Source: Bacteroidota bacterium | Lineage (GTDB): Bacteria > Bacteroidota > Bacteroidia > Flavobacteriales_E > Vicingaceae | DNA length: 34,128 bases | Direction: 5' to 3' | Assembly (NCBI GenBank): GCA_016183805.1 | Contig: JACPDX010000072.1 | Location: forward strand, 1 to 34,128 | Part shown: positions 2,886-17,991 of the stretch, piece by piece | How the letters are laid out: every line of letters starts with the position of its first letter | How positions within the stretch are numbered: position 1 is the stretch's first letter | Notes under the pieces: model-generated | The model's database searches: none | The model's input: only the letters and a program-made list of their open reading frames with translations | What the model was told of the DNA's origin: nothing | Program-made: the position numbers and the translations under genes

Positions 2886-4502
2886 ATGAATAAGATAATA
2901 AATAAAGTAAAAAAATCAACACTACTTAAATTATCATTTTTGTATGTTGCTTCACTTTTTGCTCACACAACCGTGTACGCTCAAGGGGGTAAAGATTTGT
3001 TTAAAACAAACTGTTCTGCTTGCCACACTGTAGGAGCTAATAAATTGATTGGTCCTGGTTTGGAGGGTATAAACACTAAAAGAAGCAAAGAATGGTTGAA
3101 TAAATGGATAAAAAATTCTACAGAACTTATTGCTAGTGGAGACAAAGATGCAAAAGCCATTTTTGAAGAATTTAATAAAATTCCAATGCCAGCTCAAGTG
3201 TTGACTGACGAACAAATCACCCAAATTCTGGATTATGTTGCAAATCCAAATGCAGAGGCTGCTGTTGCTCAAGCAGAAGCTCCAAAAGCTGAAGGTGCAA
3301 GTGAGGAAGTATTATTGGGAGAAAAACTTTTTAAAACAAACTGTGCGGCTTGTCATACAATTGGTGATAATAAATTGGTTGGACCAGGTTTAAAAGGTGT
3401 AAATGAAAGAAGAAATGCAGAATGGTTAGTGAAATGGATTACAAATTCTGCAGAACTAATAGCAAGTGGTGATGCTGATGCAAAAGCAATTTTTGAGCAA
3501 TTCAATAAAGTTCCAATGCCAGCTCAAACAGTAAATGCAGATGAGATTAAAGCAATATTAGCATACATTAAAAATCCCCCGGTTAAACAAGGAGAAGTTG
3601 CCCAAACTGATGTTGCGGCTACAGAAACTAAATCTGACTCAAAAGCTACATTGATTATTATCATTATTTTAATTGTTATTCTAGCAGGAATGATACTGTT
3701 GCTTAACAAAACAAGAGTTACCATTGCAAAAGCAGCAGCAGATAAAGAAGGTGTTGAATTTACTGGTCCAGTTTCATTGGTTGATGCTTGCAAACACACT
3801 ATAAGTAAAAATAAAGGCTTGGTAGCTGCTTTGGTTATTGTATTGTTTTTTGCAGGGTTAGTAAAATTGATGGACGGAGCATTTACTATTGGTGTTCATA
3901 CAGGTTACAAACCGGAACAACCTATTAAATTCTCACACAAAGTTCACGCAGGAGACAATAAAATAGATTGTAATTATTGCCACTCTAGTGCAAGACATAG
4001 TAAAACTTCAGGTATTCCTTCACTAAATGTTTGTATGAATTGCCATAAATATGTTGATGGTACAAATGGTAAAACATTCACTTATAATGGAGAAGAGTTC
4101 CCAATGCCGGAAGAAATCAAAAAGATTTATAAAGCTTTAGATTACAATCCTGAAACTCAAGTTTACGGTAATAATCCAACTCCTGTAAAATGGATTAAAA
4201 TTCACAATTTACCAGACCATGCATTTTTTAGTCACTCACAACACGTTTCAGTGGGCAATCAAACCTGTCAAACATGTCATGGTGCTGTTGAAACGATGGA
4301 TGTTGTAGAACAATTCTCTCAATTAACCATGAAATGGTGTATTGAATGTCATGATAAAACAGGTGTTGCTAACGAAGGTAATGGCTATTACGAAGAAATG
4401 CACTCAAGAATGACAGAACAATACAAACAAAAATGGTTGGGTGATGGAAAACTTACGGTTGAAGAAATTGGTGGTTGGGAATGTGCAAAATGTCATTATT
4501 AA
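2886..4502 (+). CDS. actA: Alternative Complex III subunit A, multiheme cytochrome c with seven CxxCH motifs
   Basis: ActA is the multiheme cytochrome c subunit of Alternative Complex III, which oxidises quinol and reduces c-type cytochromes on the periplasmic side. After a signal peptide (residues 1-33) there are two mono-heme cytochrome c domains, CSACH at 43-47 and CAACH at 153-157, each with a likely Met ligand (M101, M211). A transmembrane helix at about 255-273 and another at 311-329 follow. The pentaheme domain then carries CNYCH 362, CMNCH 383, CQTCH 461, CIECH 485 and CAKCH 533. The well-studied ActA proteins have a pentaheme core, so the two extra domains are an extension. They are about two-thirds identical to each other at a 110-residue offset, which indicates tandem duplication. 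It is the first gene of the operon. Confidence 0.93.
   Translation: MNKIINKVKKSTLLKLSFLYVASLFAHTTVYAQGGKDLFKTNCSACHTVGANKLIGPGLEGINTKRSKEWLNKWIKNSTELIASGDKDAKAIFEEFNKIPMPAQVLTDEQITQILDYVANPNAEAAVAQAEAPKAEGASEEVLLGEKLFKTNCAACHTIGDNKLVGPGLKGVNERRNAEWLVKWITNSAELIASGDADAKAIFEQFNKVPMPAQTVNADEIKAILAYIKNPPVKQGEVAQTDVAATETKSDSKATLIIIIILIVILAGMILLLNKTRVTIAKAAADKEGVEFTGPVSLVDACKHTISKNKGLVAALVIVLFFAGLVKLMDGAFTIGVHTGYKPEQPIKFSHKVHAGDNKIDCNYCHSSARHSKTSGIPSLNVCMNCHKYVDGTNGKTFTYNGEEFPMPEEIKKIYKALDYNPETQVYGNNPTPVKWIKIHNLPDHAFFSHSQHVSVGNQTCQTCHGAVETMDVVEQFSQLTMKWCIECHDKTGVANEGNGYYEEMHSRMTEQYKQKWLGDGKLTVEEIGGWECAKCHY
2988..3578 (+). repeat. tandem duplication of the cytochrome c domain within actA
   Basis: Residues 35-121 and 145-231 of ActA align without gaps. 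Shared blocks are LFKTNC, ACHT, GPGL, NS-ELIASGD, DAKAIFE, FNK and PMPAQ. By hand count about 57 of 86 positions are identical. The linker between copies is Ala/Glu-rich (AAVAQAEAPKAEGASEE). Confidence 0.85.
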
Positions 4503-4531: not shown

Positions 4532-7500
4532 ATGGCTAATACAAAAAAATACTGGAAAGGTTTAGAACAATTTAATGAGGATGCTAAATTTTTAGAATCT
4601 TCAAAAAATGAATTTCCCGAACATTTACCTGTTGACGAATTTTTAGGTGATGCATCATCTTTAGAAAGTTCTTCAACTTCAAGAAGAGATTTTCTTAAGT
4701 TTTTAGGATTTGGTGTTGCTGCAGCTTCATTAGCTGCTTGTGAAACCCCTGTAACTAAAGCTATCCCTTATTTAAATAAACCCGAAGAAATTACTCCAGG
4801 AGTTGCAAATTATTATGCATCAACTTATTTTGATGGTAATGATTATGCACCTATTTTAGTAAAAACTAGAGAAGGAAGACCAATTTTTATAAGTGGAAAT
4901 ACATCGTCAACTTTAACTAAAGGAGCTGTTAATGCAAGAGTAAATTCGTCAGTTTTATCTTTATATGATAACAACAGATTAAAAAATCCATTAGCTAATG
5001 GAAAAGACTCGGATTGGAATACAGTTGACAGTGCGATTAAAAATGAATTAGCCTCAGCAAAAAATGTACGGATTTTATCTTCTACAATCATTAGTGAAGC
5101 CACAAGAAGTATTTTGTTTGATTTTGCAGCCAAAGAAGTAAAGGATGAAAAAGGAGTTGTAAAAGGTCGTCAGTTAGACGGTTGGGTTCAATACAATCCT
5201 ATTTCTTATTCGGGAATAATAAATGCTAACCAAGAAACTTTTGGAAAAGGAGCAATTCCAACTTATAACTTTAAAAAGGCAAAAACTATCGTTAGTATTG
5301 GTGCAGATTTTATGGGCAACTGGTTAGATGCCTTGATGTATATAAATGATTACGCTCAAACTCGTAAACCTGACAATGATTGGATGTCGAAACATTATCA
5401 GTTTGAAGCAAACATGTCATTGTCTGGCACAAATGCAGATGTAAGAGTTCCGGTTAAACCTTCTGAATATGGTGCAGTAGTTGCACAAATTTTAAATAAA
5501 TTAGGTGGTGGTGTTAGTGCTGCAGCTACAAAATACGATACTTACATTGATGCAGTTGTAAAAGCTTTAAAAGCTACAGCAGGAGAATCAATTGTAGTTT
5601 GTGGTTCGAACGATAAAAACGTACAAGTTTTAGTTAACGGAATTAACAACTTGCTTGGTAATTATGGTAATACCATTGATTTAGTTCGTCAATCAAACAC
5701 CAAAAAAGGTGATGACGCTGAATTATTGAAATTAATCAAAGAAATGAATGCTGGTGAAGTGGATGCTTTATTCATTTATGGCGTTGATCCAGTAGCTACT
5801 TTAGGAGATGAATTTAAAGCAGCTTTAGCTAAAGTTAAACTTTCAGTATCTTTTGCATCAAAATTAAATGATACCGCAGCAACTTGTAAATATGTTTGCC
5901 CTGATAATCATGGGTTGGAATCTTGGAATGATGCTAATCCTGTTGAAGGTCATTATTCGTTAGCACAACCAACCATTTCAAAATTATTTAATACTCGTCA
6001 AGCACAAGAAAGCTTCTTAACTTGGAAAGGGAATAATACTTCTTATTACGATTATTTAAAAGCATATTGGGAGGCTAACATTTTTACAAAACAAACCAAC
6101 CAATTATTTTTTACTGATTTTTGGAACAAAGCTTTACACGATGGAGTTGTTGAAATCTCAACTCAATCTACAGAAGTATTATCATTTAATGCTGATTTAA
6201 ATGCTGCATATACGGCTGTTAAAACTATTAAAGGTGGTGAGTTAGAGATTGTATTAACTCAAAACATGGGTATTGGTGATGGGGCTGGAGCAGATAACCC
6301 TTGGTTACAAGAAATGCCCGACCCATTGACTAAAGTTACTTGGGACAATTATGTTACCATGAATCCAGCAGAAATGCTTGATAGAGGTTACAACATTAAT
6401 TTAGGTCAAGAACAATTGGCAAATGTTGTTAATGTTACTGTAAATGGCAAAACGGTTGAAAATTTACCTGTTGTTGCTCAACCTGGTCAAGCAAAAGGAA
6501 CCATTGGTGTTGCTCTTGGTTATGGTAAAAAGGTTGGTAACATGTCAGAACCAACAGGTAAAAATGCTTACCCATTAGTAACATTAACCGAAAATGGGTT
6601 GAGTTATTATGGTGTTGCTACTCTTGCTGATGTTTCAATGGAATACCATGTTGCTGCAACTCAAACCCAACAAACTATTATGGGTAGAGATTCTATTATC
6701 AGAGAAACGGTTTTAGATGTCTATAAAAAAGGAAACAAAGAAGATTACAATCCAGCTCATACATTGTTGTTTCATGAAAAAGGTGAAGCGATTCAAAAAA
6801 GTGTAAAAGAAATCGATTTATGGGGTGCTCAACCGGTTGAAAATATCGGTCACAGATGGGGAATGTCAATTGATTTGAATACGTGTATAGGCTGTAGTGC
6901 TTGCGTTACTTCTTGTGTATCAGAAAACAATATTGCTGTAATAGGAAAAGATGAGGTAAGAAGAGGTAGGATAATGCATTGGATGAGAATTGACAGGTAT
7001 TATTCTAGTGATTATCAAGAAATAGGTAAAATTGGTGATACCCATGAAAAAACCAAAGCTGGGGATAATGTAGGAGGTATTTCTGCTTATGCCAAAATGG
7101 AAAGAGCTGCTGATAATCCGATGGTTGTTCATCAACCAATGATGTGTCAGCATTGTAATCATGCAGGTTGCGAAACAGTTTGTCCTGTTGCTGCTACAAC
7201 TCATAGTAACGAAGGGTTAAACATGATGGCATACAACCGTTGTATTGGAACCAGATATTGTGCAAATAACTGTGCTTATAAAGTAAGAAGATTTAACTGG
7301 TACAATTATAAAGCATATAATAAATTTACGGAAGTAAATCCTTCACAAGATGATTTAGGACGTATGGTATTAAATCCGGATGTTGTAGTTCGTTCAAGAG
7401 GGGTAATGGAAAAATGTAGTTTATGTGTTCAACGAATTCAAGCTGGTAAATTGGATGCTAAAAAACTAAGTGCTAAAGTTGTTGATGGAGCTATACAAAC

Positions 7501-7681
7501 AGCTTGTTCATCAGCTTGTCCTACTAATGCAATTACTTTTGGTGATTTAAACGATACATCAAGTAAAGTTGCCGAAGGAAAAAACCATAACAGAGCTTAT
7601 TTAGTAATTGAAGAGGTTGGTCAACAACCAAATGTTTACTATCAAACTAAAGTAAGAAATTTAAAAAATAGCGAAGCTTAA
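4532..7681 (+). CDS. actB: Alternative Complex III subunit B, molybdopterin-like/iron-sulfur protein
   Basis: ActB is the peripheral periplasmic subunit that carries the iron-sulfur wire of Alternative Complex III. The N-terminus has a twin-arginine motif at residues 51-52 (SRRDFLKFLGFG), then LAAC with Cys70 as a possible lipid attachment site. Residues about 90-770 resemble the molybdoenzyme fold, which in characterised ActB binds no molybdenum. The C-terminal ferredoxin-like part has CIGCSACVTSC at 785-795, CQHCNHAGCETVCP from 872, CIGTRYCANNC from 904, CSLC from 962 and CSSAC from 992. Thr replaces one Cys in CIGT, as expected for the cluster pattern in this family. The length of 1049 residues is normal. 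It starts 29 bp after actA. Confidence 0.95.
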   Translation: MANTKKYWKGLEQFNEDAKFLESSKNEFPEHLPVDEFLGDASSLESSSTSRRDFLKFLGFGVAAASLAACETPVTKAIPYLNKPEEITPGVANYYASTYFDGNDYAPILVKTREGRPIFISGNTSSTLTKGAVNARVNSSVLSLYDNNRLKNPLANGKDSDWNTVDSAIKNELASAKNVRILSSTIISEATRSILFDFAAKEVKDEKGVVKGRQLDGWVQYNPISYSGIINANQETFGKGAIPTYNFKKAKTIVSIGADFMGNWLDALMYINDYAQTRKPDNDWMSKHYQFEANMSLSGTNADVRVPVKPSEYGAVVAQILNKLGGGVSAAATKYDTYIDAVVKALKATAGESIVVCGSNDKNVQVLVNGINNLLGNYGNTIDLVRQSNTKKGDDAELLKLIKEMNAGEVDALFIYGVDPVATLGDEFKAALAKVKLSVSFASKLNDTAATCKYVCPDNHGLESWNDANPVEGHYSLAQPTISKLFNTRQAQESFLTWKGNNTSYYDYLKAYWEANIFTKQTNQLFFTDFWNKALHDGVVEISTQSTEVLSFNADLNAAYTAVKTIKGGELEIVLTQNMGIGDGAGADNPWLQEMPDPLTKVTWDNYVTMNPAEMLDRGYNINLGQEQLANVVNVTVNGKTVENLPVVAQPGQAKGTIGVALGYGKKVGNMSEPTGKNAYPLVTLTENGLSYYGVATLADVSMEYHVAATQTQQTIMGRDSIIRETVLDVYKKGNKEDYNPAHTLLFHEKGEAIQKSVKEIDLWGAQPVENIGHRWGMSIDLNTCIGCSACVTSCVSENNIAVIGKDEVRRGRIMHWMRIDRYYSSDYQEIGKIGDTHEKTKAGDNVGGISAYAKMERAADNPMVVHQPMMCQHCNHAGCETVCPVAATTHSNEGLNMMAYNRCIGTRYCANNCAYKVRRFNWYNYKAYNKFTEVNPSQDDLGRMVLNPDVVVRSRGVMEKCSLCVQRIQAGKLDAKKLSAKVVDGAIQTACSSACPTNAITFGDLNDTSSKVAEGKNHNRAYLVIEEVGQQPNVYYQTKVRNLKNSEA

Positions 7682-7708: not shown

Positions 7709-9118
7709 ATGCACAAAGAGTCAGCAATAAGAGAACCGTTAATATTGGGACAAGACGTTACGTATAGTAAAATTACTAACGACGTTTTGCATACTATTGA
7801 GAACGAACCTACCAAAATGTGGAAAATACTAATGACCATAGCAACATTAATTGCTTTGTGGGGAGTTGGTTGTATTTTATATTTATTAGGTACTGGAATT
7901 GGAACATGGGGTTTAAACAATACAGTAGGTTGGGCTTGGGATATCACTAACTTTGTTTGGTGGGTTGGTATCGGTCACGCAGGAACATTAATTTCAGCAG
8001 TATTGTTGTTATTCCGTCAAAAATGGAGAATGGCTATAAATAGACCAGCAGAAGCGATGACCATTTTTGCTGTGTTTATGGCGGGAACATTTCCAATGAT
8101 TCACATGGGTAGAATTTGGATGGCTTATTGGGTTTTACCTTTACCAAATCAATTTGGTTCTTTGTGGGTAAACTTTAACTCACCATTGTTGTGGGACGTT
8201 TTTGCAATCACCACGTATATGTCTGTTTCTTTAGTGTTTTGGTATATCGGTTTGATACCTGATTTTGCTACCATTAGAGATAGAGCTAAAAAACCAGTTC
8301 CAAAATTAATGTATGCTTTATTAAGTTTTGGTTGGACAGGAAATGCAAAAGCTTGGCAACGTTTTGAAGAAGTTTCTTTGGTATTAGCAGGTTTAGCAAC
8401 ACCACTGGTATTCTCCGTTCACTCTATTGTATCTATGGATTTTGCTACATCAGTAATACCTGGTTGGCATACCACTATTTTCCCTCCATATTTTGTGGCT
8501 GGGGCTGTGTTCTCTGGTTTCGCAATGGTACAAACATTAATGATTATTGTTCGTAAAGCCATGCGATTAGAACAATATGTTACCATCAAACATATTGAAT
8601 ACATGAACATTGTAATTATTGTTACAGGTTCTATTGTTGGAGTTGCGTATTTAACAGAGCTTTTCATGTCGTACTATTCAGGAGTTGAATATGAATCTTA
8701 CGCATTTATTAATCGTTTTTCTGGACCTTATGCTTGGGCTTATTGGACGATGATGACTTGTAATGTTGTATCACCTCATTTGTTTTGGTTTAAAAAATTA
8801 AGAACAAGTTTAGGATTTACCTTCTTCATGTCTATTATTGTTAACATCGGTATGTGGTTCGAACGATTTGTAATTATTGTAACTTCAGTACACAGAGATT
8901 ATTTGCCATCAAGTTGGTCTATGTTCTATCCAACATGGGTTGATTTAGGTGTTTACATCGGAACAATAGGTATATTCTCAGTATTCTACTTATTATTCTT
9001 AAAATATTTTCCTGTATTGGCTTTCAATGAAGTAAAATCTATTTTGAAATCATCTGGAGAGAAATATAAAAACATGTCGGATGAAGAATTTAAAAAGTTA
9101 CATCCAGTAAAAAAATAA
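7709..9118 (+). CDS. actC: Alternative Complex III subunit C, NrfD/PsrC-like membrane quinol-binding protein
   Basis: This 469-residue polytopic inner-membrane protein of the NrfD/PsrC family has about ten hydrophobic segments. In Alternative Complex III, ActC is the subunit proposed to bind and oxidise menaquinol and pass electrons to ActB. Recognisable family parts are NFVWWVGIGHAGTLISAVLL, FPMIHMGRIWMAYWVLPLPN, LVFSVHSIVSMDFATSVIPG and FERFVIIVTSVHRDYLPSSW. The start at 7709 leaves a 27-bp gap after actB and gives the usual cytoplasmic N-terminus with REPLILG. The gene is third in the act operon. Confidence 0.95.
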   Translation: MHKESAIREPLILGQDVTYSKITNDVLHTIENEPTKMWKILMTIATLIALWGVGCILYLLGTGIGTWGLNNTVGWAWDITNFVWWVGIGHAGTLISAVLLLFRQKWRMAINRPAEAMTIFAVFMAGTFPMIHMGRIWMAYWVLPLPNQFGSLWVNFNSPLLWDVFAITTYMSVSLVFWYIGLIPDFATIRDRAKKPVPKLMYALLSFGWTGNAKAWQRFEEVSLVLAGLATPLVFSVHSIVSMDFATSVIPGWHTTIFPPYFVAGAVFSGFAMVQTLMIIVRKAMRLEQYVTIKHIEYMNIVIIVTGSIVGVAYLTELFMSYYSGVEYESYAFINRFSGPYAWAYWTMMTCNVVSPHLFWFKKLRTSLGFTFFMSIIVNIGMWFERFVIIVTSVHRDYLPSSWSMFYPTWVDLGVYIGTIGIFSVFYLLFLKYFPVLAFNEVKSILKSSGEKYKNMSDEEFKKLHPVKK

Positions 9119-9161: not shown

Positions 9162-9692
9162 ATGTCAGACAAAAAAATATATGCGATTTATGATGATGAT
9201 TATGTGCTTTTAGAAAGTGCAAAACATTTGGTTGCTAAAGGCATTTATATTAGAGATATATTCTCGCCATTTCCAATTCATGGTCTTGATCCAGTAATTG
9301 GATTAAAAAGAACTCGAATTGCTATGGCAGCATTTATTTATGGAATGACTGGAGTATCTCTTGCTTTATTAGGTTTATGGTATTTTATGATTCAAGATTG
9401 GCCATTGAATATTGGTGGTAAACCTAATTTTTCTTTGTGGACTAACTTGCCATCTTTTATTCCAGTAACTTTTGAGTTTGGTGTGTTGTGTGCGGCTCAT
9501 GGAATGGCAATCACTTATTTATTACGTAATTGGACTTTACCAGGATTTAAAGCAAGAAATCCTTATCCAAGAACTACTGATGATAGATTTGTGATGGAAA
9601 TTCATACTCATGACAATGATATTAGTGAAAATGACATAAAAGCATTGATTAATGAAACTTGTGTTTTAGAAATTGATGTAAAAAATTCATAA
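9162..9692 (+). CDS. actD: Alternative Complex III subunit D (DUF3341)
   Basis: ActD is a DUF3341 membrane subunit of Alternative Complex III. The 176-residue protein has a cytoplasmic N-terminal domain with the family motif GIYIRDIFSPFPIHGLDPVI (residues about 27-46). Two transmembrane helices follow (MAAFIYGMTGVSLALLGLWY and FEFGVLCAAHGMAITYLL), then a C-terminal tail with NPYPRTTDDRFVMEI. In known complexes ActD contacts ActC and is essential for assembly rather than redox chemistry. The length and order between actC and actE are as expected. Confidence 0.93.
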   Translation: MSDKKIYAIYDDDYVLLESAKHLVAKGIYIRDIFSPFPIHGLDPVIGLKRTRIAMAAFIYGMTGVSLALLGLWYFMIQDWPLNIGGKPNFSLWTNLPSFIPVTFEFGVLCAAHGMAITYLLRNWTLPGFKARNPYPRTTDDRFVMEIHTHDNDISENDIKALINETCVLEIDVKNS

Positions 9693-9710: not shown

Positions 9711-10367
9711 ATGAAAAAGAATTATAAAAATAGTTGCATAAAACTTAGTTTAGCTTTGGTGGTTGTTTCACTTTTTTCGTGTAAAGAAAAAAATGGATTG
9801 GCTCCTGAATATATGCCAGACATGTTTCGTTCTCCATCTATTGAAACTTATGTAGATTATGGTGAAGTAAGAGACAAACAACATCCTGAAATGAAAGATA
9901 AAATATCGGCAATGTTACCTGTTAAAGGAACAATTCCTAGAGGTTTTACTCCATATCCATACGAAAACACACCAGAAGGGTATGAATTGGCGGGTGCTAA
10001 TTTAAAAAATCCTTTGGTTTATAACGAACAAGTTGTTAAAGAAGGAGAGGTGTTATTTGGAATGTTTTGTGTTCATTGTCATGGAACAACTGGACAAGGT
10101 GATGGGATTTTAGTACAAAGAGAGAAATTTCCTCCATTACCAGTAAAATTTGCACCAGGATTAGCCATTCCTGAAGGAAAAATGTTTCATTCTATTACTT
10201 ACGGTAGAAACTTAATGGGGGCACATGCTTCTCAATTAACTAAAGAAGAACGATGGAAACTCGTTTTATTCATTAGAACAAAGTTTATGAATGAAAATCA
10301 AACAACAATTGCTATTGATAGTAATGCTGTTGATAGCGTTGTAACTAAAGATGTTTCACAAAAATAA
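9711..10367 (+). CDS. actE: Alternative Complex III subunit E, mono-heme cytochrome c lipoprotein
   Basis: ActE is the mono-heme cytochrome c of Alternative Complex III. A lipoprotein signal (LVVVSLFSC, Cys24) anchors the 218-residue protein to the membrane. The heme motif is CVHCH at 120-124, and M169 in GRNLMGAH is the likely axial ligand. The region NTPEGYELAGANLKNP before the heme is typical of the family. It follows actD by 18 bp. It probably hands electrons toward cytochrome oxidase together with the ActA hemes. Confidence 0.94.
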   Translation: MKKNYKNSCIKLSLALVVVSLFSCKEKNGLAPEYMPDMFRSPSIETYVDYGEVRDKQHPEMKDKISAMLPVKGTIPRGFTPYPYENTPEGYELAGANLKNPLVYNEQVVKEGEVLFGMFCVHCHGTTGQGDGILVQREKFPPLPVKFAPGLAIPEGKMFHSITYGRNLMGAHASQLTKEERWKLVLFIRTKFMNENQTTIAIDSNAVDSVVTKDVSQK

Positions 10368-10384
10368 TCCGTCGATTGACGGAT
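10367..10384. other. intercistronic hairpin between actE and actF
   Basis: ATCCGTC and GACGGAT form a perfect 7-bp stem around a GATT loop, beginning at the last base of the actE stop codon. No T-run follows, so it is not an intrinsic terminator. It could stabilise or process the mRNA, and it lies 15 nt before the actF ATG. Confidence 0.6.
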
Positions 10385-10399
10385 AAAACACTTATAAAA

Positions 10400-11608
10400 A
10401 TGGAATATAAAGTATCAAATAAAGCGAACATTACAACTATACTTTTAATTGTAATTGGTTTATCGGCATTCTTAATTGGGTTATTTACAAGTCATGGACA
10501 TACAGGACAACGAGTGTGGGCAAATTTATTGGTAAATGGATATTTCTTTTTTACCATTTCTTTAGCTTCGTTGTTTTTTGTTGCTCTTCAGTATATTTCT
10601 GAAATGGCTTGGGGCGTAACAACACAAAGAGTTTTCCAAGCAACCATGAGTTTTATGCCTGTTTCAGCATTAGTTTTGTTAGTGGTATTTATTGGTGGTT
10701 CAATGCATTGGAATCATCTTTACCACTGGATGGCTGAAGGAATTACCGATCCCAAAAGTGAACATTATGATGCTATAATTACTGCTAAATCAGGATACTT
10801 AAATCTTCCTTTTTTCTGGGGTAGAACCATTGCTTATTTTGCAGTTTGGTTGTTTTTTGCTTATTGGTTCGTAAAAAAATCAAAAGAAGAAGATCAATTA
10901 ACACTTGCTAAGGGTGAAACTTCTCCAGTTTACAAGAAAAAAATATTTATGGGAGTTTTATTTGTAGCGTTCTTTGCCTATACATCTTCATCGTCAGCTT
11001 GGGATTGGTTAATGTCAATTGATGTTCATTGGTTCAGCACCATGTTTGGATGGTATGCTTTCTCAGGAATGTGGGTGTCTTCTATTATTGTGGTTTTATT
11101 GTTAGTTCTCTATTTAAAATCATTGGGTCATCTTAAAGAAGTTAACGATAGCCATATTCATGATTTAGGTAAATGGATGTTTGCAATTAGTATGTTGTGG
11201 TCATATTTATGGTTTTCTCAATTCATGTTAATTTGGTATTCAAATATACCTGAAGAAGTTACCTATTATATGGAAAGATTTAATGATTATAAATTACTAT
11301 ATGTGGGAACTTTCTTTGTTAACTTTTTATTACCATTCTTCGTGTTAATGTCGAGAGATGCAAAAAAGAATGTAGTGTTTTTATTGCCAGTGGCTTTAAT
11401 CATCTTTTTTACTCATTGGTTAGATGTGTTAACAATGGTGTTGCCTGGAACTATGCACGACTATGGTTCTTTAGGCTCAATTGAAATAGGTATGTTTTTA
11501 ATGTTTTTAGGATTGTTTATCATGGTAACATTAAGATCATTATCAAAAACACAATTAATGGCAAAAAATCACCCAATGTATGATGAAAGTATTCATTTAC
11601 ACACATAA
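10400..11608 (+). CDS. actF: Alternative Complex III subunit F, NrfD-like membrane protein
   Basis: ActF is the second NrfD-like polytopic subunit of Alternative Complex III and a structural paralogue of ActC, proposed to contribute to proton movement. I start it at ATG 10400 (MEYKVSNKANITTILL), giving 402 residues. The in-frame TTG at 10376 lies in the loop of the intercistronic hairpin and is an unlikely start. About ten hydrophobic helices are visible. Recognisable parts are GHTGQRVWANLLVNGYFFFT, SFMPVSALVLLVVFIGGSMH, SSSAWDWLMSIDVHWFSTMF and LPGTMHDYGSLGSIEIGMFL. A strong terminator follows 22 bp after the stop codon and closes the act operon. Confidence 0.94.
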   Translation: MEYKVSNKANITTILLIVIGLSAFLIGLFTSHGHTGQRVWANLLVNGYFFFTISLASLFFVALQYISEMAWGVTTQRVFQATMSFMPVSALVLLVVFIGGSMHWNHLYHWMAEGITDPKSEHYDAIITAKSGYLNLPFFWGRTIAYFAVWLFFAYWFVKKSKEEDQLTLAKGETSPVYKKKIFMGVLFVAFFAYTSSSSAWDWLMSIDVHWFSTMFGWYAFSGMWVSSIIVVLLLVLYLKSLGHLKEVNDSHIHDLGKWMFAISMLWSYLWFSQFMLIWYSNIPEEVTYYMERFNDYKLLYVGTFFVNFLLPFFVLMSRDAKKNVVFLLPVALIIFFTHWLDVLTMVLPGTMHDYGSLGSIEIGMFLMFLGLFIMVTLRSLSKTQLMAKNHPMYDESIHLHT

Positions 11609-11672: not shown

Positions 11673-12371
11673 ATGGAAATAAAATGTTTAGGTAACTGTG
11701 TAGGGTGTTTAAAAGTTAATCTTTCTTTATTTAGCGATTTAAATGAAAATGAACTTGAGTTAATAAATAGAGGGAGAGATAAATTTTATTACAAAAAGGG
11801 TGACGTGATTTTTAAAGAAGGTTCTCAACCTATTGGGTTAAATTGCCTTAGTTTGGGCAAAGTTAAGTTAGTAAAGACTGGAAAAATTGAAGATGAGTTT
11901 ATTGTAGGATTATTTAAACCGGTAGATTTTATAGGTTTTGATCATTTAATGTCAAATTCACCTTATAGTTATTCAGCCATTGCATTAGAAGATGTAAATA
12001 TTTGTATCATCAAAAAAGAAAATTTATTTGGTGTTATTTCAAAAAATTTAGGGCTTTCCACGAAAATAATTGACCACCTTTCACAAAAACTTATCAGTCA
12101 AAATGAAAGATTATTAATTCTTACTCAAACAAAACTTGAATCAAGATTAGCATACACTCTGCTAGATTTAATTAATTTTTTTGGATTTGAAGCTGATGGA
12201 AAAACACTTGCAGTTGAATTAAAACGAAAAGAAATAGCCTCATTATCAAGCATGAATACCGCAAATGTGATAAGAATGATGTCGCATTTTAAGAAATTAA
12301 AAATAATTAATACCAAACTTAGAAAAATTCAGATTCTTAGGTTGGATTTACTAAAAAATCTCGTAGATTAG
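11673..12371 (+). CDS. Crp/Fnr family regulator with FNR-like cysteine set
   Basis: This 232-residue transcription factor has a cyclic-nucleotide-binding-like sensor domain (residues about 15-125) and a C-terminal winged helix-turn-helix (residues about 184-210, KRKEIASLSSMNTANVIRMM). The N-terminus has C5, C9 and C12 in CLGNCVGC, the same spacing as C16, C20 and C23 of E. coli FNR. C111 in EDVNICIIKK aligns with FNR C122. The counterpart of FNR C29 is S18. An oxygen-sensitive iron-sulfur cluster is therefore plausible, perhaps with C5 as replacement ligand. The recognition helix has A197, I200 and R201 where FNR has Glu, Ser and Arg, so its site probably differs from the FNR box. The position between act and cox genes suggests it controls respiration. 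Confidence 0.85.
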   Translation: MEIKCLGNCVGCLKVNLSLFSDLNENELELINRGRDKFYYKKGDVIFKEGSQPIGLNCLSLGKVKLVKTGKIEDEFIVGLFKPVDFIGFDHLMSNSPYSYSAIALEDVNICIIKKENLFGVISKNLGLSTKIIDHLSQKLISQNERLLILTQTKLESRLAYTLLDLINFFGFEADGKTLAVELKRKEIASLSSMNTANVIRMMSHFKKLKIINTKLRKIQILRLDLLKNLVD

Positions 12372-12488: not shown

Positions 12489-13508
12489 ATGATGGTATTA
12501 TTGGTAAGTGTAACTGTATTATTGGTTATCATTTCGGCAGCACAAATATTAAAGATTGCTGAATTAAGTGCTATTAGTAAAGGCGTTAAAGTTTACGAAA
12601 TTTCTGAGAAGGACAATAGAGTTCAAGCGGTTTTAATGTTAGTCTTTTTAGTGTTTTATTTTTCCTTTTTTGCATGGCAATATCTTAAATGGAGCCATTT
12701 AATGTTACCCGTTTCTGCATCTGAACATGGTGTTGGGGTAGATAGTTTAATGAATGTTACTTGGTTGTTTATTATTCCAGTATTTATTATTACTCATATT
12801 TTGTTGTTTTGGTTTGCGTTTAAGTACGCTTTTAAAGCCAATAGAAAAGCAGTTTTCTTTTCTCATAGTAATAAATTAGAACTTGTTTGGACATTAGTTC
12901 CTTCATTGGCTTTAACGGTATTAATTCTTTATGGATTAAATAACTGGAATAAAATTATGACACCAGTAAATTCAGAAGAAGACCACGTGTTAATTGAATT
13001 ATTAGGACAACAATTTTCATGGGGAGCAAGATATGCTGGGGATGATAAAAAATTAGGAAGGGCTAATGTAAATTATATTGAAGGTGCAAATTTTATGGGA
13101 ATAGATTCCACTGACAATAATTGCAAAGATGATATTGTCGTAAAAGGAGAGTTTCATATTCCAGTTAATGTGCCAGTTCAATTTGTAATGCGTTCTAATG
13201 ATGTTTTGCACAGTGCATATATGCCTCATTTTAGAGCTCAAATGAACTGTGTGCCAGGGATGAAAACACAATTTAACTTTGTTCCTACCATCACTTCTAA
13301 AGAGATGAAAAAAATTACCAATAACGAAAACTTTGAATACCTATTATTGTGTAATAAAATTTGTGGAGCAGCACATTACAATATGCAAATGAATATTGTT
13401 GTTGAAAGTAAAGAAGATTATGCAAAATGGCTTTCATCACAAAAAAAGTTTGGAAGTAGCCTCCCCAACCCATCCGAAGGAGGGGCTTTAGTAGAGACAC
13501 AAAAATAG
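12489..13508 (+). CDS. coxB: cytochrome c oxidase subunit II (CuA)
   Basis: Subunit II of an aa3-type oxidase accepts electrons from cytochrome c at the binuclear CuA centre. The periplasmic cupredoxin domain (residues about 163-315) has C288, C292, H296 and M299 in CNKICGAAHYNM. It also has HSAYMPHFRAQMNCVPGM, which carries the upstream His and acidic/aromatic region. No fused cytochrome c domain is present. There are four hydrophobic segments (about 2-18, 47-66, 90-110, 131-150), two more than the classical pair, an arrangement common in Bacteroidota. The tail SLPNPSEGGALVETQK lies beyond the folded domain and is encoded by a dispersed repeat. It is the first gene of the cox operon. Confidence 0.95.
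   Translation: MMVLLVSVTVLLVIISAAQILKIAELSAISKGVKVYEISEKDNRVQAVLMLVFLVFYFSFFAWQYLKWSHLMLPVSASEHGVGVDSLMNVTWLFIIPVFIITHILLFWFAFKYAFKANRKAVFFSHSNKLELVWTLVPSLALTVLILYGLNNWNKIMTPVNSEEDHVLIELLGQQFSWGARYAGDDKKLGRANVNYIEGANFMGIDSTDNNCKDDIVVKGEFHIPVNVPVQFVMRSNDVLHSAYMPHFRAQMNCVPGMKTQFNFVPTITSKEMKKITNNENFEYLLLCNKICGAAHYNMQMNIVVESKEDYAKWLSSQKKFGSSLPNPSEGGALVETQK
13457..13486. repeat. GGAGGGG-type repeat encoding the CoxB tail
   Basis: AGCCTCCCC and GGAGGGGCT form an imperfect inverted repeat around a 12-nt centre. The core TCCGAAGGAGGGG resembles, in opposite orientation, the element at 18292-18307. It is G/C-rich compared with its surroundings and encodes the C-terminal LPNPSEGG of CoxB. Confidence 0.55.
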
Positions 13509-13540: not shown

Positions 13541-15319
13541 ATGAGTACACATCATCATCACGACCAAGATTTTTTATTTAAATATGTCTTTAGTCAAGAC
13601 CATAAAATGATTTCAAAACAGTTTTTAATAACTGGTTTCATCATGGGTTTTATTGGGTTGATAATGTCAACGCTTTTTAGGTTACAATTGGGTTGGCCTG
13701 GCGAAAGTTTCTGGATTATAGATAAACTACTAGGCTCGTGGGCAGAAAATGGAGTGATGGCTCCTGATAAATACTTGGCTTTGGTTACCATGCATGGAAC
13801 CATTATGGTGTTCTTTTTATTAACTGCCGGATTGAGTGGAACTTTTAGTAACTTATTAATTCCACTTCAAATTGGTGCTAGAGATATGGCTTCAGGATTC
13901 TTAAACATGCTGTCGTTTTGGTTTTTCTTTCTTTCAAGTGTTATTATGTTAATTTCATTAGGTGTTGAAGGTGGTGCTGCATCTGCCGGGTGGACTATCT
14001 ATCCACCATTAAGTGCATTACCTCAAGCAATACCTGGTTCCGGTTTAGGAATGACATTGTGGTTAGTAGCTATGGCATTGTTTATTGTAGGGTCGTTATT
14101 GGGTAGCTTAAACTACATTGTAACCATTTTAAATTTACGTACAAAAGGAATGAGCATGACTCGTTTACCTTTAACCATCTGGGCATTTCTTTTAACAGCA
14201 ATTATTGGAGTGGTTTCTTTCCCTGTTTTATTATCGGCTGCTTTATTATTAATTTTTGATAGAGGTTTTGGAACAAGTTTCTACTTATCAGATATCTATA
14301 TTGGTGGACAAGTATTAGAACATAATGGCGGAAGCCCAATTTTATTTGAACATTTATTCTGGTTTTTAGGCCATCCTGAGGTTTACATTGTTTTACTTCC
14401 GGCATTGGGTATTACTTCCGAAATTATTTCTACCATGACTCGTAAACCAATTTTTGGTTACAGAGCGATGATTGGTTCAATGGTTGCCATTGCGTTTTTA
14501 TCTACCATTGTTTGGGGTCATCACATGTTTGTTACAGGTATGAACCCATTTTTAGGGGCAGTATTTACCTTTACCACTTTATTAATTGCAATTCCTTCAG
14601 CAGTAAAAGTGTTTAATTATTTAACAACATTATGGAAAGGAAATATTAAATTTTCTCCTGCAACATTATTCAGTATTGGATTAGTTTCTACCTTTATTTC
14701 AGGTGGATTAACAGGTTTAATACTTGGTGATTCCGCTCTTGACATTAACGTTCATGATACTTATTTTGTGGTTGGTCACTTCCATATTGTAATGGGGTTA
14801 TCGGCAATTTTTGGAATGTTCGCCGGAGTTTATCACTGGTTTCCAAAATTGTTTGGTAGAATGATGAACAATAAAATAGGGCAGCTTCATTTTTGGATTA
14901 CTATTGTTTGTGCTTATGGAATTTTCTTCCCTATGCACTTTTTAGGATTAGCCGGTGTTCCGAGAAGATATTATACGAATTCTGAGTTCCCACTTTTCGA
15001 TAACTTGTTAGATATTAATGTCTTGATAAGCACATTTGCAATTATTATTGCTTTCGGTCAATTGTTATTCTTGTATAATTTTGTATTTAGTGCCTTAAGA
15101 GGTCCAAAAGCTCCACAAAATCCTTGGGATAGTAACTCTTTAGAATGGACTGCTCCTGTTGAACATATTCATGGAAACTGGTATGGCGATATTCCTGAAG
15201 TATACAGATGGCCTTATGATTATAGCAAAGTAGATGAAAATGGTGAATACATTGGCGGAAAAGATTTTATTCCTCAAACAACACCTTTATATGATAATGA
15301 AACTGACGAAGCACATTAA
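13541..15319 (+). CDS. coxA: cytochrome c oxidase subunit I
   Basis: This is the catalytic subunit of a heme-copper oxygen reductase, which reduces O2 and pumps protons in the inner membrane. Ligands are visible: H85 in MHGTIMVF and H415 for low-spin heme, H278, H327 and H328 for CuB, and H413 in VGHFHIV for the high-spin heme. FLGHPEVY, with E280 and the cross-linking Y282, marks an A1-type oxidase. The 592 residues include about twelve helices and a hydrophilic C-terminal tail (NSLEWTAPVEHIHGNWYGDI). The His-rich start MSTHHHHDQD is normal for relatives. No ctaB (heme O synthase) gene lies nearby. Confidence 0.97.
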   Translation: MSTHHHHDQDFLFKYVFSQDHKMISKQFLITGFIMGFIGLIMSTLFRLQLGWPGESFWIIDKLLGSWAENGVMAPDKYLALVTMHGTIMVFFLLTAGLSGTFSNLLIPLQIGARDMASGFLNMLSFWFFFLSSVIMLISLGVEGGAASAGWTIYPPLSALPQAIPGSGLGMTLWLVAMALFIVGSLLGSLNYIVTILNLRTKGMSMTRLPLTIWAFLLTAIIGVVSFPVLLSAALLLIFDRGFGTSFYLSDIYIGGQVLEHNGGSPILFEHLFWFLGHPEVYIVLLPALGITSEIISTMTRKPIFGYRAMIGSMVAIAFLSTIVWGHHMFVTGMNPFLGAVFTFTTLLIAIPSAVKVFNYLTTLWKGNIKFSPATLFSIGLVSTFISGGLTGLILGDSALDINVHDTYFVVGHFHIVMGLSAIFGMFAGVYHWFPKLFGRMMNNKIGQLHFWITIVCAYGIFFPMHFLGLAGVPRRYYTNSEFPLFDNLLDINVLISTFAIIIAFGQLLFLYNFVFSALRGPKAPQNPWDSNSLEWTAPVEHIHGNWYGDIPEVYRWPYDYSKVDENGEYIGGKDFIPQTTPLYDNETDEAH

Positions 15320-15327
15320 TTAAAAAT

Positions 15328-15921
15328 ATGGCCTCAATTACATTACAAGACTTGAATACTAAAGCTGAAATTCGCAAGAAAACAGCGAAGCCATTACTTT
15401 GGATTGGCATCGTTAGTATTGTGATGTTTTTTAGTGGCTGGACGAGTGCCGTAATTGTAAGTAAAGGCGGAAATGGAAACTGGTTAAACATTGAGCTCCC
15501 TTTTGCTTTTTCATTAAGCACTATAATTATTGTATTGAGTAGTCTTTTGTTTCATTATGGATTAATCTCCATAAAAAAAGATAACAAAAAGATGTTGAAA
15601 TTAGCAGTTTCGTTAACACTTGTTTTAGGGTTGTTGTTTGTGGTTAGCCAGTTTTATGGTTGGAAGGAACTATACTCTAATGGAATTGTTGCCACAGGTT
15701 CGAGTAGTACAAATGCAAGTTCATTTATCTATTTAATAACCGTTTTTCATGTGTTGCATTTGTTGGCGGGTATTATTTCGTTAATTGTTGTTTCGGTAAA
15801 ATCGTATAAGGAAAAATATAATTCTACCAATTTTTTAGGTGTTGAAGTAAGTATTATTTACTGGCACTTTTTAGGAGCATTATGGATTTATTTGTTTTTA
15901 TTTTTAAAATATATAGCTTAG
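15328..15921 (+). CDS. cytochrome c oxidase subunit III-type protein (first copy)
   Basis: This is a 197-residue five-helix member of the heme-copper oxidase subunit III family. Hydrophobic segments include ITVFHVLHLLAGIISLIVV. The C-terminal WHFLGALWIYLFLFLKYI is the family hallmark. It begins 8 bp after the coxA stop codon. Subunit III stabilises subunit I and proton uptake. A second subunit III gene follows by 20 bp; tandem short and long copies are usual in Bacteroidota oxidase operons. Confidence 0.88.
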   Translation: MASITLQDLNTKAEIRKKTAKPLLWIGIVSIVMFFSGWTSAVIVSKGGNGNWLNIELPFAFSLSTIIIVLSSLLFHYGLISIKKDNKKMLKLAVSLTLVLGLLFVVSQFYGWKELYSNGIVATGSSSTNASSFIYLITVFHVLHLLAGIISLIVVSVKSYKEKYNSTNFLGVEVSIIYWHFLGALWIYLFLFLKYIA

Positions 15922-15941
15922 TTTAATAATACATTACTATT

Positions 15942-16802
15942 ATGTCAAATACAATTTCAATAGATAAAAAATCTGCATGGGCTGGTGATAATAAGTCGCC
16001 ATTTAATGTAGGTTATGGTAAGTTAATGATGTGGTTTTTTTTGGTGTCAGATGCATTATCTTTCACCGGATTTTTAGCATCTTACGGTTTTTATCGTCAT
16101 TATTATGGTTCTGTTTGGCCTAGTGCCGAAAATGTGTTCACACACTTTCCATTTATGCACGGACATCATCCTTTGTTGTATGTAGCATTAATGACCTTTA
16201 TTCTTATCATGAGTTCTGTTACCATGGTGTTAGCTGTTGAAGCTGGTCATCGTATGGATAAAAAGGGTGTTACTTTATGGATGCTTTTAACCATTGTTGG
16301 CGGAGCTATTTTCTTAGGCTCACAAGCTTGGGAATGGGGTCATTTTATTCATGGAACAGAACTAGGTGCTATTGAATTGGGTAAAGGAGTTTTTACATTG
16401 CCTGATGGCTCAGTAGAAATGACTAAAGGGTTGATTGCACGTTGGTCAGACGAATCAAAACAAACCTTGTTATTACCTTGGAAAGATGGTGCTGAATACA
16501 TCAAAGTTACAGGGGCTCAAATGTCAGAAATGGTTGCAAATGGAAAAGAAATTTTTGGAGCAAATTTAACCCACAACGAATACGGACATCCATTATTTGC
16601 TGATTTCTTCTTCTTCATTACTGGTTTTCACGGAACTCACGTGTTGAGTGGTGTTATTCTTAATTTCATCATTTTTGTTAATGTGATTATGGGAACGTAT
16701 CAAAAAAGAGGTCATTACGAAATGATTGAAAAAGTTGGATTATATTGGCATTTTGTTGATTTAGTTTGGGTATTTGTTTTCACATTCTTCTATTTAATTT
16801 AA
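15942..16802 (+). CDS. cytochrome c oxidase subunit III (second, longer copy)
   Basis: This is a 286-residue subunit III-family protein. Family segments are KLMMWFFLVSDALSFTGFLA, GSQAWEWGHFIHG, FFFITGFHGTHVLSGVILNF and GLYWHFVDLVWVFVFTFFYL. A loop of about 60 residues (about 140-200) between helices is longer than in mitochondrial COX3. Together with the shorter paralogue upstream it belongs to the aa3 oxidase. The gene lies 20 bp after its paralogue and 18 bp before the subunit IV gene. Confidence 0.92.
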   Translation: MSNTISIDKKSAWAGDNKSPFNVGYGKLMMWFFLVSDALSFTGFLASYGFYRHYYGSVWPSAENVFTHFPFMHGHHPLLYVALMTFILIMSSVTMVLAVEAGHRMDKKGVTLWMLLTIVGGAIFLGSQAWEWGHFIHGTELGAIELGKGVFTLPDGSVEMTKGLIARWSDESKQTLLLPWKDGAEYIKVTGAQMSEMVANGKEIFGANLTHNEYGHPLFADFFFFITGFHGTHVLSGVILNFIIFVNVIMGTYQKRGHYEMIEKVGLYWHFVDLVWVFVFTFFYLI

Positions 16803-16820
16803 TTATAAAAAATATTTATT

Positions 16821-17210
16821 ATGGGACATTCAGAACATTCAGATCACAACGGACACACAGAGGAAGTATATCAATATGCTGTTCATCATTCTGAGGAAGT
16901 TGGAAAAAAAATGAGAAAAAGAATCTGGCTCATTTTCTGGGTTTTATTAGGGATAACTTCTGTCGAAGTATTTCTAGGTATTTCCTGGAAAGAAATGGGC
17001 TTGCCTTGGTCAGTTATTAAAATGACTTTCATTATTTTAACCATTGCAAAAGCATTTTATATTGTATCAGAATACATGCACTTAAAACATGAAGTAACTT
17101 TTTTTAAAAATATTATTATTGTGCCTTACGTATTATTAGCATTGTATCTAGCTTATTTTGTTGTTACAGAAGCAGTTTATTCTGATATGATGGCAAAATG
17201 GTTGTATTAA
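16821..17210 (+). CDS. cytochrome c oxidase subunit IV-type protein
   Basis: This is a 129-residue small oxidase subunit of the prokaryotic COX4 (CyoD/CtaF-like) type. Three hydrophobic helices are visible (about 33-53, 60-80 and 93-115). KAFYIVSEYMHLKHEVTFFK between the second and third is typical of the Bacteroidota form. The N-terminus is His-rich (GHSEHSDHNGHTEE). It is the last gene of the cox cluster; a terminator follows. Confidence 0.88.
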   Translation: MGHSEHSDHNGHTEEVYQYAVHHSEEVGKKMRKRIWLIFWVLLGITSVEVFLGISWKEMGLPWSVIKMTFIILTIAKAFYIVSEYMHLKHEVTFFKNIIIVPYVLLALYLAYFVVTEAVYSDMMAKWLY

Positions 17211-17233
17211 AAATATTAATAAATAGAATTAAT

Positions 17234-17264
17234 AAAAGATCACAAGTAACTTTGTGGTCTTTTT
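17234..17264 (+). terminator. intrinsic terminator after the oxidase genes
   Basis: The stem AGATCACAA with TTGTGGTCT, one T-G wobble, is extended by A/T pairs and closes a GTAACT loop. TTTTT follows. It starts 24 bp after the subunit IV stop codon. The TAACTTTG promoter element of the next gene lies in its loop and 3' arm. Confidence 0.8.
17247..17254 (+). promoter_or_regulatory. -7 element nested in the oxidase terminator
   Basis: TAACTTTG fits TAnnTTTG exactly and is 29 nt upstream of the SCO1 ATG. It overlaps the loop and 3' arm of the terminator, so transcripts starting here would not form its hairpin. No -33 TTG was found. Confidence 0.45.
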
Positions 17265-17283
17265 AGTTTAATAATAGTTCAAA

Positions 17284-17991
17284 ATGAATCCAAAAATTAA
17301 AAAATCCATATATTTAATAGCAATATTATTATTGCAATCCATTTTCTATTTATTTTTATATACAGGTAAACATAATTTTCATCGATTAGAGTTTATTGGA
17401 CCAAAAGAAGCCGTTTTAAATGATGAAGGTAAATACGACACTATTTATCATCAAATTCCTTACTTTGAATTTGTTAATCAGGATGGAAATAAAATAACCA
17501 GAGATGATTTATTGGGTCATGTTTACATTACCGATTTCTTTTTTGCAACTTGCCCCACTATTTGCCCAAAAATGACAACCAACATGTCGTATCTTCAAGA
17601 TAAATTTAAGGATAATAAAAACCTAAGATTTTTATCCATTACCGTAAATCCTGAACACGATTCGGTTTCAGTATTAAAAGAATATGCCGAAAAAGTTCAT
17701 GCCGACACCAAAAATTGGGATTTTGTTACCGGAAATAAAGATTCTATTTATGATATTGCATTTAATGGCTTTTTTGTCAGTACTCAACGAGATTCGATAG
17801 CTCCCGGAGGTTTTTTACATTCAGGTATGTTAATTTTGGTGGATAAAAATGCACACATTAGAGGCTATTTTGATGGTACAACCCACAAAGAAATTAAAGA
17901 AAAATTGATTGATGCCATCGATATTTTATACAAAGAAGATGTGGTTCCTTTGAAGGGGAAAAAGAAGTCAACTATTGAACAAATAAAATAA
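17284..17991 (+). CDS. SCO1/SenC/PrrC family copper chaperone
   Basis: This 235-residue membrane-anchored thioredoxin-fold protein helps assemble the CuA site of cytochrome oxidase. One N-terminal helix (residues about 7-27) anchors it. The copper site is C90 and C94 in FFATCPTICPKM with H179 in GGFLHSGM. All three ligands are present. FLSITVNPEHDSVSVLKEYA is the usual family segment. The position directly after the oxidase genes supports the role. It may be transcribed both from its own nested promoter and by read-through. Confidence 0.95.
   Translation: MNPKIKKSIYLIAILLLQSIFYLFLYTGKHNFHRLEFIGPKEAVLNDEGKYDTIYHQIPYFEFVNQDGNKITRDDLLGHVYITDFFFATCPTICPKMTTNMSYLQDKFKDNKNLRFLSITVNPEHDSVSVLKEYAEKVHADTKNWDFVTGNKDSIYDIAFNGFFVSTQRDSIAPGGFLHSGMLILVDKNAHIRGYFDGTTHKEIKEKLIDAIDILYKEDVVPLKGKKKSTIEQIK

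Follow-up and report, generated by a model that had tools for sequence, protein, structure and literature searches.

The first gene of an Alternative Complex III (ACIII) cluster in the window, i.e. the whole stretch of 34,128 nucleotides of Bacteroidota DNA analysed here, encodes an ActA with two mono-heme cytochrome c domains (D1 and D2) in front of its pentaheme core. We think it likely that this complex has a doubled tethered carrier, with D2 as a shuttle of the known type and D1 as a second carrier on the same arm. One tethered domain on ActA is already known, and the second is a variant of this known design.

Architecture of ActA and its operon

ActA (window 2886-4502, plus strand, 538 amino acids) includes seven CxxCH motifs, at residues 43, 153, 362, 383, 461, 485 and 533, in agreement with the seven hemes that a sequence-only reading had assigned to it. 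The five motifs of the pentaheme core expected of an ACIII ActA are present, and where a Flavobacterium johnsoniae-type ActA has exactly one N-terminal mono-heme domain, the window ActA has two. Pfam Cytochrom_C matches two stretches of the protein. The gene heads an actA-F cluster that encodes an iron-sulfur ActB, an NrfD-like ActC, ActD, a mono-heme ActE and an ActF recognized by position only. The features of the region are:

2886-2984, plus strand: signal-peptide region of ActA (residues 1-33, MNKI...VYAQ), from the sequence and N-terminal helices in the model, with an inferred boundary
2988-3242, plus strand: ActA D1, mono-heme cytochrome c domain (residues 35-119; CSACH 43-47; Met101 in an invariant Met column; Pfam Cytochrom_C; 67% identity to D2)
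3243-3314, plus strand: Ala/Glu-rich linker between D1 and D2 (residues 120-143; pLDDT below 50 at residues 128-133)
3315-3575, plus strand: ActA D2, mono-heme cytochrome c domain (residues 144-230; CAACH 153-157; Met211; Pfam Cytochrom_C)
3576-3638, plus strand: linker connecting D2 with the first membrane helix (residues 231-251; pLDDT below 50 at residues 235-251)
3639-3887, plus strand: pair of ActA membrane helices with the intervening loop (residues 252-334; hydropathy and model helices)
3888-4502, plus strand: pentaheme core of ActA and stop codon (the CxxCH motifs at residues 362, 383, 461, 485 and 533; match to 6btm_A)
4532-7681, plus strand: ActB, iron-sulfur subunit (Pfam Fer4 families; named by position)
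7709-9118, plus strand: ActC, NrfD-like subunit (Pfam NrfD)
9162-9692, plus strand: ActD (Pfam ActD, E 1.8e-51)
9711-10367, plus strand: ActE, mono-heme subunit with the predicted eighth heme (one CxxCH; Pfam Cytochrome_CBB3; lipoprotein-like by reading)
10376-11608, plus strand: ActF (named from position and length; no Pfam match)
12489-13508, plus strand: CoxB, oxidase subunit II (Pfam COX2 and COX2_TM; CuA motif; no CxxCH)
13541-17991, plus strand: rest of the oxidase cluster, with CoxA, two CoxC-like ORFs, a CoxD-like ORF and a Sco-like ORF (from the ORF list, named by reading)

D1 and D2 are identical at 56 of 84 residues (67%) without a gap (E 4e-46, a single comparison), exactly the two-thirds identity first noticed, and this degree of identity rules out a chance repeat. 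The likeness extends to the DNA, where 2987-3197 is repeated at 3317-3527 (211 nt, 76% identity, spacing 330). Misassembly is an unlikely source of the pair, as the copies differ throughout (24% in DNA) and orthologues from other assemblies hold both domains. The column of Met101 and Met211 is Met in 11 of 11 D1s and 11 of 11 D2s, all from the clade g1+g4+g13 to which the window's own genus (g1) belongs, and in all 56 aligned single domains; the Met is therefore the likely sixth heme ligand, as had been proposed. With the single motif of ActE, the complex is predicted to load eight c-type hemes, a number that the earlier reading had also reached.

The AlphaFold model of ActA is heme-free and poor overall (mean pLDDT 63.1, pTM 0.37), with D1 and D2 helical at fair to good local confidence and the linkers weak. 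The linker between the domains (residues ~120-143), described at first sight as Ala/Glu-rich and flexible, has that composition as well as low local confidence. Hydropathy peaks in 19-residue segments starting at residues 248-263 and 305-319, and the model places helices at residues 252-288, 298-308 and 310-334. In a fold search with the model, the top match was F. johnsoniae ActA (6btm_A), followed by Rhodothermus marinus cytochrome c (3cp5). By sequence, 6btm_A aligns to residues 113-538 (E 4.1e-99), i.e. to D2 and the core but not to D1, and D2 (residues 144-230) matches 3cp5, so that this free cytochrome is related to D2 in both sequence and fold. C153, C156 and H157 of D2 are invariant across a 35-row alignment including single-domain ActAs, which align with D2. 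On this alignment, D2 is the counterpart of the single N-terminal domain in six-heme ActAs.

The CoxB encoded downstream carries CNKICGAAHYNM, which fits C-x3-C-x3-H-x2-M, a pattern that we take to be the CuA motif. Since CoxB has this motif but no heme c motif, the oxidase needs an outside carrier. An ORF that reads as a Crp/FNR-like regulator lies between actF and coxB (11673-12371); a similar ORF is found at the same place in genomes G001 and G052, and none in G002. Unlike the window, the seven-heme genome G006 (locus L066) has an ACIII cluster that is not followed by cox genes in the 19 kb examined.

The closest described relative is the ActA of F. johnsoniae (6BTM), which shares the pentaheme core and a membrane-anchored, mobile N-terminal mono-heme domain with an aa3 partner, but has one such domain and six hemes where the window ActA has two and seven. 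The sixth heme is described as lying in this mobile domain, which cryo-EM left unresolved, and the domain was suggested to ferry electrons from ActE to aa3 (PMC8552683); the tethered-shuttle idea of the sequence-only reading had thus already been put forward for a single domain. The ActA of R. marinus has a homologous pentaheme core (6f0k_A) but, as described for its ACIII with caa3, lacks the N-terminal domain, an extra heme c being carried by the oxidase instead (PMC8552683).

Distribution and history of the second domain

In order to see how common two N-terminal domains are, we searched the family, the class and a collection of named genomes. Of the 46 genomes in the family search, 44 passed the E 1e-30 threshold for ActA and two (G004 and G056) did not; a gene-order search returned the same 46. 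Forty-three ActAs were read as sequence, that of G048 being cut at a contig end and left out; 11 of the 43 carry two N-terminal domains and the other 32 a single one. Two domains occur in three of four ActAs of the window's own genus, in all six of g4, in two of the 12 scorable of g13 and in no other genus. D1 is missing from 11 of the 22 scorable members of the clade g1+g4+g13 and is therefore not essential to the complex.

In a class sample at completeness of at least 90, 221 of 247 genomes match at E 1e-50. Among the roughly 150 matches listed, counted by hand, seven begin before query residue 40 (G000, G003, G006, G071, G273, G102 and G163); this count goes by match start. Reading confirmed seven hemes in G071, G273 and G163, while G102 starts at a contig end with both domains visible. 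The long frames of G227, G248, G138, G192, G072, G228 and G209 were also read and have one domain each. The 80 best loci in the named genome collection include 15 with seven motifs, 64 with six and one with five, a set biased towards two-domain proteins because its loci were chosen as best by score; L133, counted with the 64, is truncated and retains two N-terminal domains and four hemes of the core. Seven-motif ActAs in this set include those of Aureibaculum flavum A20, Lutibacter oceani 325-5 and L. litoralis JCM 13034, and the four closest loci are Flavobacteriales or Vicingaceae MAGs. Titles and abstract openings of the ACIII papers listed showed no two-domain ActA, which is not proof that none has been published. 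Two domains are a minority state (11/43 in the family, 7 of the ~150 class matches listed) and not the rule among relatives that the earlier reading had allowed for, but they are common to a clade and recur elsewhere, so that a two-domain ActA is not unique.

The clade g1+g4+g13 (23 rows, support 100/99 in the core tree) holds both seven- and six-heme ActAs, and the seven-heme state calls for eight changes over 72 rows and for five in the family. Deep forks are seldom resolved in trees of domains this short. The 11 D1s of the family all fall together in the domain tree (93/90), beside g11 single domains (81/90); D2s group with the single domains of the clade in the domain trees. One gain with several losses of D1 within the family would fit, and a single origin there is favoured. 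D1 forms one clade in a smaller tree (78/82), with support lost once other cytochromes are added. AU tests rejected a separate duplication in g1 (p-AU 0.009), but neither a separate duplication inside g13 (p-AU 0.348) nor a tree in which every domain of g1, g4 and g13, whether D1, D2 or single, falls in one clade (p-AU 0.18). Genus g6 is sister to the clade in the core tree and its single domain joins D1, not D2, in one tree (99/85); the duplication may therefore slightly predate the clade. Leftover linker in G002, G052 and G055 was considered as proof of D1 loss, an argument that is weakened because single-domain Flavobacteriaceae ActAs share Ala/Pro-rich N-termini.

The source of D1 was also considered. 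Genomes G022 and G013 encode a standalone mono-heme cytochrome (199 and 214 amino acids; loci L054 and L055) with 65-66% identity to D1 and 63% to D2, possibly an untethered counterpart of D1; both hosts have a six-heme ActA and NarG. The nar operons of Bacteroidota include a diheme cytochrome, presumably to be called NarC, whose first heme domain resembles D1 (47-57% identity in seven compared, 57% in three g13 genomes), while the protein itself is separate, has a different second domain and belongs to a narGHJI operon. D1 could have been captured from such a gene, standalone or narC, instead of being a tandem copy of D2: a tree with D1, D2, single, standalone and NarC domains does not resolve their order, and D1 joins the g11 single domains, not D2, in the domain tree above. 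We regard capture as unlikely, given that the family's D1s, D2s and single domains form one group apart from other lineages (97/88) in a tree without the standalone and NarC rows, and that the two domains of G071 are each other's sisters (100/83, and 86/61 in a second domain tree), as are those of G273 (100/99 and 100/96). The tandem duplication first proposed stands as the best account, with capture of a related cytochrome domain possible in the window's own clade. With the exception of the D2 of L133, the Flavobacteriaceae-type D1s and D2s group among themselves (29 rows, 96/87), apart from the family's. Considering the separate groupings of the family, G071, G273 and Flavobacteriaceae-type domains, at least three separate D1/D2 duplications are likely from the trees, and f49 may represent a further one.

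D1 bears marks of constraint. All 11 copies retain the Cys, His and Met. Of ten pairs compared over a 65-residue block, eight gave a D1 dN/dS of 0.03 to 0.27 and two yielded no dS, while D2 gave 0.04 to 0.19 in ten of ten; dS of 0.7-2.2 in the D1 comparison means that it is partly saturated. Compared with D2, D1 is more acidic (mean net charge -4.2 against -1.5, 11 rows each) and fewer of its columns are invariant. By these substitution patterns D1 is under purifying selection. The several gains and apparent losses, together with the fact that one domain is enough for most relatives seen, would be expected if D1 were a neutral by-product of repeat expansion with no function of its own; the low dN/dS, the invariant ligands, the shared charge shift and the presence of D1 in six of six g4 genomes make this quite improbable.

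Other cytochromes and nitrogen-oxide enzymes alongside seven-heme ActA

In actinobacteria, the diheme cyt cc of QcrC is described as linking complexes III and IV (III2IV2 supercomplex) in bacteria without small c-cytochromes (PMC8361435). The window ActA resembles it in that two heme c would tie a quinol-oxidising complex to an oxidase; QcrC, however, belongs to a cytochrome bcc complex while the neighbours of the window ActA are ACIII genes. With this precedent, and with two N-terminal heme c domains beside a CuA oxidase that has no heme c of its own, D1 and D2 might be a fixed serial relay to CuA that replaces soluble cytochrome c. Other Cytochrom_C matches (total minus ActA domains) have a median of 7 in the 11 seven-heme genomes and 3 in the 32 six-heme genomes (Mann-Whitney p 3.7e-5, with three genomes left out and relatedness ignored). 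This difference points away from D1 as a substitute for the soluble carrier. The window's genome, unlike the hosts of QcrC, has other c-type cytochrome ORFs that read as mono-heme and lipoprotein-like, as well as several c-dependent reductases (by reading), and one domain suffices in 32 of 43 family relatives. A fixed relay is very unlikely on these grounds, and the sequence-only suggestion that the tethered domains could replace a soluble cytochrome c is not supported, as both the window's genome and the seven-heme genomes carry further c-type cytochromes.

The excess of other cytochromes is in part the diheme protein of narGHJI operons, and NarG was tested for this reason. It scores over the cut-off in 10 of 11 seven-heme and 5 of 32 six-heme family genomes (Fisher 1.5e-5), and in 10 of 11 and 2 of 11, respectively, within the clade g1+g4+g13; G048, whose ActA is unscorable, also carries it. 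The one exception among the 11 is the window's own genome, which has no NarG over the cut-off but includes NosZ, NorB/NorC-like ORFs (by reading), a cbb3 FixO and a second, weaker FixO match. Four supported pairs are independent, with the same direction in 2.1 on average and the opposite never, and with four pairs no significance is attainable for the link. Outside the family, the seven-heme genomes G071 and G273 have NarG over the cut-off and G102 and G163 have weak matches only. Among six-heme genomes with ActA read, NarG is present in G110 and absent from G140, G217, G169, G194, G190 and G165; G237 and G135, with ActA not read, are without it. NarG was absent from all 15 seven-heme and all 34 six-heme genomes of a Flavobacteriaceae-type hold-out sample, the sole positive of 50 being L118, close to the family's G047. 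In view of this failure NarG is at most a local correlate of the seven-heme state, strong in the family and rejected as a general one. NosZ (over the cut-off in 2 of 11 seven-heme and 9 of 35 other genomes) was likewise rejected, as was the cbb3 oxidase, which does not separate the states (9/11 and 6/11 in the clade, Fisher p 0.36).

In G022 (L111, 4215-13329) a narC-narG-narH-narJ-narI run is followed, after ~310 bp on the same strand, by the actA-actB-actC genes of a six-heme ACIII (nar names by reading), and nitrate reductase and ACIII may be co-regulated there. This arrangement, the NarG counts in family and clade, the NarG of G071 and G273, and the NosZ, NorB/NorC-like and FixO genes of the window's genome could mean that D1 serves other branches (denitrification enzymes, cbb3 oxidase) while D2 alone serves the CuA oxidase. 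Against this division of labour, which we hold to be rather unlikely, are the discovery of the NarG link after looking, its four independent pairs, the seven-heme G102 and G163 without NarG over the cut-off, the six-heme G110 with it, the hold-out, and the NosZ and cbb3 counts given above.

Proposed electron route

Under the preferred reading of a doubled tethered carrier, the role of D2 is very probably that of the single F. johnsoniae domain. Lying beside the membrane helices, D2 would accept electrons from the pentaheme wire or ActE and deliver them to the CuA site of the cluster's own oxidase, which resembles an aa3-type enzyme. D1 would sit beyond D2, tethered to the end of the arm through a flexible linker of ~24 residues. 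Transfer in series, from the core or ActE to D2, then D1, then the acceptor, appears most likely, with D2 to D1 as the simplest geometry, although this order is conjectured. D1 might lengthen the reach of the arm, hold a second electron or serve acceptors beyond the bound oxidase, the acceptor being conjectural.

A wider proposal, speculative and unlikely to be right, would make ACIII an electron-distributing hub in Bacteroidota: its tethered domain would have been doubled repeatedly, the inner domain feeding the CuA oxidase and the outer, more acidic domain further periplasmic acceptors, with D1 dropped when its clients were lost. If so, one quinol complex would covalently bear two carriers with different clients.

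In the F. johnsoniae map the mobile domain was left unresolved, and deletion of actE is described as retaining aa3 activity, so that ActE is dispensable there; deletion and complementation of actA are available in that species (PMC8552683). Natural ActAs with two, one and zero (R. marinus) tethered domains, including those of named Lutibacter and Aureibaculum strains, form a variant set for the shuttle model, the electron route and the reach of the arm.

Two further regions were noted. A 1445-amino-acid ORF at 19462-23799 of the window reads as a CusA-type RND efflux pump and a TolC-like outer membrane part in one frame. Locus L100 (G000 C33, 6572-10797) includes another NrfD-like and 4Fe-4S cluster, with two CxxCH ORFs that have similar-looking cytochrome domains (names by reading).
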